Assembly: GCA_018608545.1 (NCBI GenBank)
Contig: JABAZI010000075.1
Coordinates: forward strand, 1 to 33,843
DNA length: 33,843 nucleotides
Source: Polaribacter sp.
Lineage (GTDB): Bacteria > Bacteroidota > Bacteroidia > Flavobacteriales > Flavobacteriaceae
Direction of reading: 5' to 3'
Shown: positions 19,481 through 22,376 of the stretch, piece after piece
How positions within the stretch are numbered: position 1 is the stretch's first letter
Layout of the letters: every line of letters starts with the position of its first letter
Notes under the pieces: generated by a model
Database searches by the model: none
What the model was told of the DNA's origin: nothing
What the model saw: the letters and a program-made list of their open reading frames with translations, nothing else
Program-made: the position numbers and the translations under genes

Positions 19481-20107
19481 ATGATTTGGCTTAAGGATAC
19501 AATTGAATTTCCTTCCTATGAATCTACCTCCAACGACGGCATCATTGCTTTAGGAGGAGATTTGAGTGAAGAACGGTTAATTCACGCATATAATAACGGA
19601 ATTTTTCCCTGGTATTCTGAGGGAGATCCAATTGTTTGGTATTGTCCACACAAAAGAATGGTCTTATTCCCAGAGGCTATAAAAGTATCAAAATCCATGC
19701 AAAAGATCATGAACAACAACAACTATACAATCACTGAAAACAAGGCTTTTAGTGAGGTGATTTACAATTGCAAAACAATCGACAGAAAAGATGGTTTTGG
19801 AACTTGGATTACGGGAGAAATGGAGCAGGCTTATATTAATTTACACCAAAAAGGACTCGCAAAATCAATAGAAATTTGGCTTGGAAACGAATTGGTTGGC
19901 GGTTTATATGGTTTAGAAATAAATAATATATTCTGTGGAGAAAGTATGTTTAGCAAAGTTTCTAATACTTCAAAATTAGCATTCATACATCTGGCTAAGA
20001 ATAAAGAATATACATTAATAGATTGCCAAATATACAATCAACACTTGGAGCGTTTGGGAGCAAAGGAAATAGATAGAAGTACTTTTTTACAAATCTTAAA
20101 AAGTTAA
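19481..20107 (+). CDS. aat: leucyl/phenylalanyl-tRNA--protein transferase
   Basis: GIIALGGDLSEERLIHAYNNGIFPWYSEGDPIVWYCPHKRMVLFPE; GGLYGLEINNIFCGESMFS; IDCQIYNQHLERLGAKEIDRSTFL. Confidence 0.97.
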   Translation: MIWLKDTIEFPSYESTSNDGIIALGGDLSEERLIHAYNNGIFPWYSEGDPIVWYCPHKRMVLFPEAIKVSKSMQKIMNNNNYTITENKAFSEVIYNCKTIDRKDGFGTWITGEMEQAYINLHQKGLAKSIEIWLGNELVGGLYGLEINNIFCGESMFSKVSNTSKLAFIHLAKNKEYTLIDCQIYNQHLERLGAKEIDRSTFLQILKS

Positions 20108-20164
20108 TTTTTGACAGCTATTTTATGGCATGATAGTTGCTTTTTTCTATTTAAAAAAGAGAAT

Positions 20165-20700
20165 ATGAAAAAAAAATCATTTTAATTTTATTTTTTTTCA
20201 CAAGTCTGATTTCTTTTTCACAGGAGAAATTTGGAGCACCTTATTTTACAGCAGCTGCCAACCTTACTTTTGCAGTCAACGAAAACTATACCTTAGACCC
20301 AGATGATGGAGAGTCTCTTTTAATACCTTCTGCAATCTTTCTTAGAATGGGTTTTGGCTATGAGTTTAAAAAAAGAATCGCTTTGAGTCTAAACGGTGGG
20401 TTTGATTATCACTGGAATCGTGCATTGAGTTCATTTCCAACATACAGTAGTGTAAAATATATTATTACCGAAAATCAAGGAGATCAATTTTTTACAGAAT
20501 TTAGTTATGGAAAAATGTGGAGGCCTTCTAGAAGGTTTTCTGACGGGAGCTATTATCGTCTTGGTCTGGGTACTCAAATAAAAGGATTGGGGAGATGGAA
20601 TACTATTATTCGATTAGATTTTCATAGAAAAGGGATTATTGGCTTCGACAAGAACAAAATAGAGAGTGTTTCTCTAGGAATAGAATTTTCTTTCTTTTAA
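20165..20700 (+). CDS. outer-membrane beta-barrel-like protein; ATG and signal peptide out of frame by one nucleotide at an A9 run
   Basis: Frame of ORF 20347..20700 reads upstream as KKIILILFFFTSLISFSQEKFGAPYFTAAANLTF... (signal peptide), but ATG at 20165 followed by A9 reads MKKKSF-stop. The only in-frame ATG is 20347. Confidence 0.65.
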
Positions 20701-22376
20701 AAATCTGAAGCGATCGTAAAACACATCGTTTTATTTGTAGATGGATGTAAAAATTCAATATATTCTGCATGTAAATGCAATCTATTTTCTTTTTTTCCGT
20801 ACAAATCATCTCCAAAAATAGGAGTATTTAACCCATCTTTATGTGCAGCATGGATTCTTAATTGATGGGTTCTTCCTGTAACTGGATAAAAATAAACACG
20901 GCTTTTACCATTTTCTTTTTTAACGAGCTCCCAATTGGTTTCAGTTTTTTTACCATATTTAAAGTCTACGAGTTGTCTGGGTCTGTCCTCTAAATCAACT
21001 CGTAATGGAAGTTTAATAGTTCCTCTATTTTGTGTTAAATATCCGTCTAATACAGCTACATACCTTTTTTTAACGGTTCTGTTAATAAACTGACTTTGTA
21101 AAGTTGCATTTGCTTCTTTCGTTTTGGTAAGTACTAGAATTCCAGAAGTAGACATGTCTAATCGATGAACAATTAATGGGCCAGTAGCTGATGGATATTT
21201 CTTTTTGATTCGAGTATACACAGAGTCGGTAATATTTTTTCCAGGAACAGATAAAAATTCAGCGGGTTTGTTGACAACAATTAAAACAGCATCTTCATAA
21301 ACAATTTCTAAATCTTGTTTTTCTGACAAGTTTTTTAGTAATAAATTAGGATCCATTTGAATGCCTTGTAGCATATGAGTTAAAATAGGCTTACATCTGC
21401 CTTGGCAGGCAGGATAAAAATTCTCATGCCTTCTTATGGCTGAATTTGGTGAAATTCCCCACCAAAATTCTGCCAAACAAATAGGTGTTAAATTAGTTAA
21501 AAAAGCATATTGTAATAATTTAGGAGCCGAACATTCACCAGAACCAGCAGGTGGTTTTATACTAGGATTATTAAAAATGTCCAATAAGTTTTTTTGTTTT
21601 TTGTCTTTATTTAAGAATGCGTATTTGCTAAAAAGTGTTTGTTGTAGGTAATTAGATTTTTCTTTTCGTTGTTTCTTTAAGGATGCAATTTCTTCTTTAT
21701 AAACAGCAATTTTTTCTTCCTCTTTTTTAATTTTTTTCTGGTAATATTCTTGAAGCTCTCTATAATAAAATTGATCATTAAAACTTTCTTGGACTAGCTT
21801 TTTATCAAGGGAACTAATGGCTGAATTAGTTAACGTAGAAAAACTATTTTTCTTTCTAACTTTTCTGTCAAATTTACGGAGGGTTAATTTTTTTCTCTCA
21901 AGAGTTAAATCAGTAGTTATCTCTTTTGATATTTTTTGAATCGATTTCTTCAAGGACACATACGTTATATCTTGCTTTATAGAAGTTAATCGTTTGTTTA
22001 GTTTGTTTATTTCTTTCTCTCCCTTTAGGTAGAAACTGCCATCGGTCCTCATATTAAAAACAGGAGGAACAAATTTTTCAGGCAAACTATTGTCAGCTAG
22101 CTTCCCAGAAAACGCAGCGAGATAGCCAATTTTATTTTCATTATTTTTCACAACTAATACACCAAACATCTTCCCTATTGGTGGGTTTTCAGATTTTTTG
22201 TTTAGTCCAAAATCATGAATGAAATCAGATTGTGTTTTTAAATATTTTTGTAATTCTTTTGCCGCAATTTTAGCCAAATGATGTGGCTCATAATAAAAAG
22301 GAAATGTAAATTTTTCTGGAAGTGGTATTTCTGAAATATCTTCTTTAAAATTTTGGAAATAATTCAATAGGTACAA
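20697..22376 (-). CDS. RluA-family pseudouridine synthase with long N-terminal extension
   Basis: C-terminal catalytic domain: VVNKPAEFLSVPG, GPLIVHRLDMSTSGILVLTKTKEA, GRTHQLRIHAAHKDGLNTPIFGDDLYG. About 340 aa N-terminal extension with charged coiled-coil-like stretch. Confidence 0.92.
   Translation of the reverse strand: MYLLNYFQNFKEDISEIPLPEKFTFPFYYEPHHLAKIAAKELQKYLKTQSDFIHDFGLNKKSENPPIGKMFGVLVVKNNENKIGYLAAFSGKLADNSLPEKFVPPVFNMRTDGSFYLKGEKEINKLNKRLTSIKQDITYVSLKKSIQKISKEITTDLTLERKKLTLRKFDRKVRKKNSFSTLTNSAISSLDKKLVQESFNDQFYYRELQEYYQKKIKKEEEKIAVYKEEIASLKKQRKEKSNYLQQTLFSKYAFLNKDKKQKNLLDIFNNPSIKPPAGSGECSAPKLLQYAFLTNLTPICLAEFWWGISPNSAIRRHENFYPACQGRCKPILTHMLQGIQMDPNLLLKNLSEKQDLEIVYEDAVLIVVNKPAEFLSVPGKNITDSVYTRIKKKYPSATGPLIVHRLDMSTSGILVLTKTKEANATLQSQFINRTVKKRYVAVLDGYLTQNRGTIKLPLRVDLEDRPRQLVDFKYGKKTETNWELVKKENGKSRVYFYPVTGRTHQLRIHAAHKDGLNTPIFGDDLYGKKENRLHLHAEYIEFLHPSTNKTMCFTIASDF

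Follow-up and report, generated by a model that had tools for sequence, protein, structure and literature searches.

The stretch of DNA analysed here, referred to as the window, comprises 33,843 nucleotides of a draft-like Polaribacter assembly (G000; 2.3 Mb, 92 contigs, 90.7% complete). The element of interest is a small gene for a predicted outer-membrane protein, whose start codon is put out of register with its reading frame by a run of nine adenines (A9). The locus was compared across a set of 168 genomes of the genus Polaribacter, with one genome for the species of G000. The following features are found at the locus.

19481..20107, + strand: aat, encoding leucyl/phenylalanyl-tRNA-protein transferase, the intact upstream neighbour (TIGR00667 and PF03588)
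20126..20140, + strand: predicted sigma-54 (-24/-12) promoter TGGCATGATAGTTGC (motif in orthologues; rpoN/PF04552 in G000)
20152..20154, + strand: TAA stop, after which the membrane-protein frame opens (bases read directly)
20165..20185, + strand: ATG with its own six-codon frame, MKKKSF and a stop (translation)
20168..20176, + strand: A9 homopolymer, the frameshift site (sequence, compared with orthologue starts)
20170..20700, + strand: disrupted gene with 176 codons and a stop codon, from a putative family of small outer-membrane beta-barrels, with no usable in-frame start (orthologues up to 73% identity, alignment, family-wide matches)
20170..20220, + strand: predicted Sec signal peptide KKIILILFFFTSLISFS (hydrophobic stretch followed by an invariant Q18 in 30 aligned sequences)
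20697..22376, - strand: RluA-type pseudouridine synthase, the intact convergent neighbour (PF00849)

An earlier sequence-only reading had described an ATG at 20165 followed by exactly nine A's, an immediate stop in the frame of that ATG, a signal-peptide frame offset by one register, and no ATG, GTG or TTG in the latter frame before 20347. All of this agrees with the bases. The ATG occupies 20165-20167 and the A's 20168-20176, the ATG frame ends directly after MKKKSF, the frame arithmetic is correct, and the first in-frame start codon in the list of open reading frames is indeed the one at 20347. The continuing frame opens after the TAA at 20152-20154, reads KREYEKKIILILFFFTSLISFSQEKFGAPYF... 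and ends at the stop at 20698-20700; no second stop or frameshift occurs inside this 176-codon frame of G000. The length of the A9 run decides the reading frame of the membrane-protein gene, and by frame arithmetic the register could be restored by one added A in the RNA or by a -1 ribosomal shift. Translation from 20347 was considered and rejected, since a product begun there would have neither the signal peptide nor the initial third of the protein, and no orthologue supports it.

Gene family, start codon and predicted product

The frame has matches in 107 of the 168 genomes, with up to 73% identity, of which about 106 are real because one weak match sits inside a much longer frame. Among the genomes that are at least 90% complete, the gene was found in 86 of 130. 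With a 30-member profile, about 20 further genera were matched in 251 genomes drawn from the family Flavobacteriaceae, and in a scan of genome contigs the only named relatives with a matching gene were Polaribacter sp. Z022 and Hel1_85. A real, disrupted gene with a signal peptide is supported here: the frame is kept in about 106 congeneric genomes, and the genes of relatives begin where they would be expected to, usually at an in-frame ATG with MKK-type residues behind it. Among the 101 full-length copies in the genus, 96 count as intact; 90 of these begin in frame with ATG, and six have GTG or TTG in that position. Because these 96 copies start in frame at this very place, ATG 20165 marks the true start, as placed in the sequence-only reading. 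The signal peptide is likely to be cleaved before the Q.

No Pfam or NCBIfam model and no PDB sequence matches the window protein, and weak matches to the OMP_b-brl families PF13505 and PF13568 appear in one or two of 30 relatives. Structure prediction gives a largely beta model of seven strands, at low confidence (predicted local distance difference test score, pLDDT, 52), and the fold-search matches are mostly outer-membrane barrels, none of them significant. A small outer-membrane beta-barrel is the best guess for the product because a signal peptide and an aromatic C-terminus stand beside the beta-rich model and these fold matches. Like the small barrels of PF13505 (OMP_b-brl) and PF13568 (OMP_b-brl_2), which are OmpX/OmpA/PagL-like, the protein has a signal peptide, a mature part of about 160 residues, predicted antiparallel strands and an aromatic C-terminal FF. 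In contrast to them, it has no family match of its own, isolated weak ones in its relatives, and a low-confidence model.

By PolA, the nearest genomes to G000 are G019, G112 and G132 (89-90%), whereas the membrane-protein gene is nearest to those of G034 and G139 (73%) and shares only 48% identity with the G019 copy. This mismatch could possibly reflect ancient paralogy or transfer.

Predicted sigma-54-type promoter upstream of the family

A GG-N8-TTG motif, which has the -24/-12 spacing of sigma-54 promoters, lies upstream of 96 of the 101 orthologues at a consistent distance from the start, and the spacing of the window version, TGGCATGATAGTTGC, is exact. The longer form TGG-N8-TTG is present in 77 of the 101, mostly as TGGAATAGTTTTTG, compared with a mean of 2.5 and a maximum of 8 in simulated sequences with the same dinucleotide statistics. 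By itself, the motif would be expected about once per window by chance; the evidence for a promoter is its conservation at a fixed place. Moreover, the motif is kept with the gene in orthologues (L003, L009, L018 and others), even where the upstream neighbour changes, and sigma-54 is encoded in the window's genome (rpoN/PF04552 at G000:C67). The window motif is close to the published consensus TGGCAC-N5-7-TTGCT (PMC12316311). Motif conservation suggests control of the gene by sigma-54, with a predicted transcription start at about 20151. This predicted family-wide promoter had escaped the sequence-only reading. A damaged promoter was also considered as an independent second lesion, as the T-rich -12 region seemed shortened relative to the relatives, but it was rejected since the -24/-12 spacing is exact.

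The sigma-54 regulon of Flavobacterium psychrophilum takes in gliding, envelope stress and exported proteins (PMC9723704). The two cases are alike in having a -24/-12 promoter (motif SM4 in F. psychrophilum) before exported or envelope proteins in a flavobacterium. They differ in that the present family was not identified in the SM4 regulon, and control in Polaribacter is suggested by motif conservation only.

Loss, breakage and start tracts in the genus

About 60 of the 168 genomes, some of them incomplete, contain no match to the gene, and beside aat in seven genomes without the gene no convincing remnant was found. Furthermore, eight copies including that of G000 are broken. A nonsense codon interrupts the G015 copy where the signal peptide ends, G072 contains two stops, the frameshifts of G148 and G121 lie away from long homopolymers, and G109 and G115 retain remnants. 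In G141 (L069, G141:C5, about 159200), the start tract is A6 as opposed to A7 in its sisters, and the promoter motif is damaged or lost. The gene is dispensable in the genus, because about 60 genomes have no match and eight copies are broken, and at least two of the lesions lie in the start tract (G000 and G141). The promoter motif is absent from three of six assessable broken copies versus three of 96 intact ones (Fisher p = 0.002), a comparison with classes set post hoc that is indicative only.

The A-run after the ATG in the 90 intact ATG-start copies is A0-A5 in 35, A6 in 30, A7 in 22, A8 in one and A9 in two, the last being in-frame tracts at L012 and L063. A long start tract is not kept in the orthologues, with A8 or more in three of these 90 copies, and neither tract length nor frame offset is conserved among the homologues. 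Many relatives have an intact start without a long homopolymer, one half of a condition that the sequence-only reading had set for its own refutation, the other half being an absence of length variation in populations. As far as alignments of the start region can tell, the tract is not a conserved contingency locus, because long tracts are not conserved (they are typically A6-A7).

Homopolymers elsewhere in G000 were surveyed in about 480 kb sampled by stretches. Within it, intact frames contain 30 coding A/T runs of at least 9 and more than 600 of 7-8, and the search turned up no second gene split at a homopolymer; the candidates for such splitting, considered as a sign of bad assembly, were all ordinary adjacent genes or chance frames. 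Runs of exactly nine A's or T's number 25 in 274 kb, and A9 by itself is not rare in this genome. Ten ATG-A9 sites exist genome-wide, comprising five in-frame gene starts, four sites in other genes or apparently non-coding DNA, and the one out-of-frame start at 20165. Among 55 ATG-A8+ sites examined, in a survey confined to this repeat type, 20165 is the only out-of-frame gene start. A second out-of-frame poly-A start was sought at L204, L213, L195, L206 and L192 and rejected, with no long frame beginning at the tract. At the gene starts L178, L219 and L207 (G000 contigs C23, C92 and C80), ATG-A8 is followed immediately by a second ATG in another frame, and the working start lies 3' of the tract and is insensitive to its length.

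Explanations of the A9 frameshift

The sequence-only reading had named four options, namely a phase switch, productive slippage, recent inactivation and sequencing error, and had settled on none; recent inactivation through homopolymer slippage suits the data best. The explanation favoured here, which we regard as about evenly poised between right and wrong, is a genuine and recent single-indel frameshift, arising by slippage in the start poly-A of a gene for a putative small outer-membrane beta-barrel under sigma-54 control. Slippage during replication of the A's directly after the ATG would disconnect the start codon from the frame, ribosomes initiating at the conserved ATG would terminate after six codons, and the protein would be absent or present at trace level. 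It belongs to a family in which loss and breakage are frequent among Polaribacter species. As for a recent single-lesion pseudogene, the gene is dispensable in the lineage, and the lesion interrupts a frame that is conserved and unbroken in orthologues. The lesion is presumably real in the cells and would abolish expression, and it appears recent because the remaining 176 codons and the promoter are intact.

Divergence bears on the age of the lesion. Relative to the nearest relative, third codon positions differ far more than second ones (0.46 and 0.10, about four times), which indicates ordinary protein constraint. The G000 branch is long in the membrane-protein gene and equally so in aat, with a ratio of 1.65 against 1.33-1.99 in others, which implies constraint over most of the branch; a gene-specific acceleration, considered as a sign of old decay, was rejected on the same equality. 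Since all but the tract is intact, constraint is ordinary and the branch is matched in aat, either the lesion is recent, or the gene is still used, or the lesion is not real. Some points weigh against a recent, genuine inactivation. With a single genome for the species, a fixed or polymorphic lesion is indistinguishable from a wrong base, and the intact promoter and clean frame also suit a gene still used via phase variation or slippage. Additionally, G000 departs from the family at four of 28 highly conserved columns (a mean of 0.7 and at most 4 among intact copies), which could mean a somewhat longer decay, and the long branch fits this count too.

Under an error of sequencing, assembly or strain mixture, the cells would have an in-frame tract and an ordinary gene. 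This is rather unlikely but carries some weight, considering that the assembly is draft-like, gene and promoter are otherwise intact, and the break lies in a homopolymer, the usual place for such errors. A systematic homopolymer artefact is unlikely, because the 30 long coding A/T runs sit in intact frames, as do the more than 600 shorter ones, with no other gene split; five of the six A9 tracts at gene starts are in frame as well. A single wrong base is possible. The broken copies of relatives, moreover, show that genuine lesions arise in this gene.

Two further alternatives keep the gene in use. In phase variation, a reversibly slipping contingency tract would have been caught in G000 in the OFF state of a surface protein. 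The tract does adjoin the start codon of a gene for a predicted surface protein, the promoter and remaining gene are kept, the independent start-tract indel in G141 speaks for a mutable tract, and two relatives have A9 in frame. Nevertheless, this is distinctly unlikely: intact copies mostly have short tracts (35/96 with A0-A5, 52/96 with A6-A7 and 3/96 with A8-A9), tract-broken copies are just two of about 100, and the G141 copy has also lost its promoter motif, which points to decay. A conserved form of the phase-variable switch that the sequence-only reading gave as one option finds no support in the relatives' tract lengths or in the rest of G000, where no other poly-A start is out of frame, and the literature searched yielded no account of homopolymer phase variation in Polaribacter. 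Productive slippage, in which an extra A inserted by RNA polymerase or a -1 ribosomal shift yields some full-length protein from A9, is physically plausible and the register suits both mechanisms. Transcriptional insertions climb steeply with A/T run length (PMC5574713), a run of nine A's reaches the length from which slippage is relevant in many bacteria, comparable 'pseudo pseudogenes' have been described (PMC1088944), and Blochmannia has frameshifted yet maintained poly-A genes (PMC3017870). It is nonetheless very unlikely here, as no relative but the decayed G141 has an out-of-frame start tract, and a shift straight after initiation with no visible stimulator would be expected to be inefficient.

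The A9 run has the length of about nine or more (threshold from PMC1088944) and the one-base-restorable register of poly-A slippage genes. With the 'pseudo pseudogenes' (Baranov et al. 2005, PMC1088944) and Blochmannia (PMC3017870), it shares a single indel in a run of about nine A's within an otherwise intact frame, an AT-rich genome, and a register that +1 RNA slippage could restore. Those systems have the tract in mid-gene, whereas here it adjoins the start codon, and the case, known from sequence alone, concerns a dispensable envelope protein in a 2.3-Mb genome. As in phase-variable surface genes of Neisseria, Campylobacter and Treponema, homopolymer length sets the frame of a surface protein; in contrast to these, long tracts are not conserved in orthologues. 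G/C tracts are common in systems of that type, whereas the present one is an A-tract. It is unlikely on the whole that a poly-A tract joined to the start codon serves as a reversible switch of a sigma-54-controlled envelope gene, or keeps the gene at a low level through slippage. If so, sigma-54 environmental control would be combined with a stochastic ON/OFF state at the start codon, and a polymorphic tract would represent start-codon phase variation in a genus for which no report of it was found.

The kind of lesion is already known, and the case gains slightly from the predicted sigma-54 promoter shared by the family and from the start-tract indel that G141 shows in parallel. Provided that the A9 is real, the locus is an example of AT-rich marine bacteria shedding envelope proteins. 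MKK-type starts create A-tracts right behind the ATG, where a single slip would remove the entire protein, and G141 illustrates this path independently. A more lasting by-product is the predicted sigma-54 promoter found throughout a small, unnamed family of outer-membrane proteins.

Regarding the flanking genes, aat lies directly upstream of the family gene in about 10 relatives, the same as in the window. At its stop codon, the membrane-protein gene shares 4 bases (20697-20700) with the end of the convergent rluA-type gene. In a few Polaribacter genomes, aat contains an in-frame stop (G063:C5:208525, G081:C12:173459 and G133:C177:7863), and the aat search returned two matches each in other genomes (G114 and G115).
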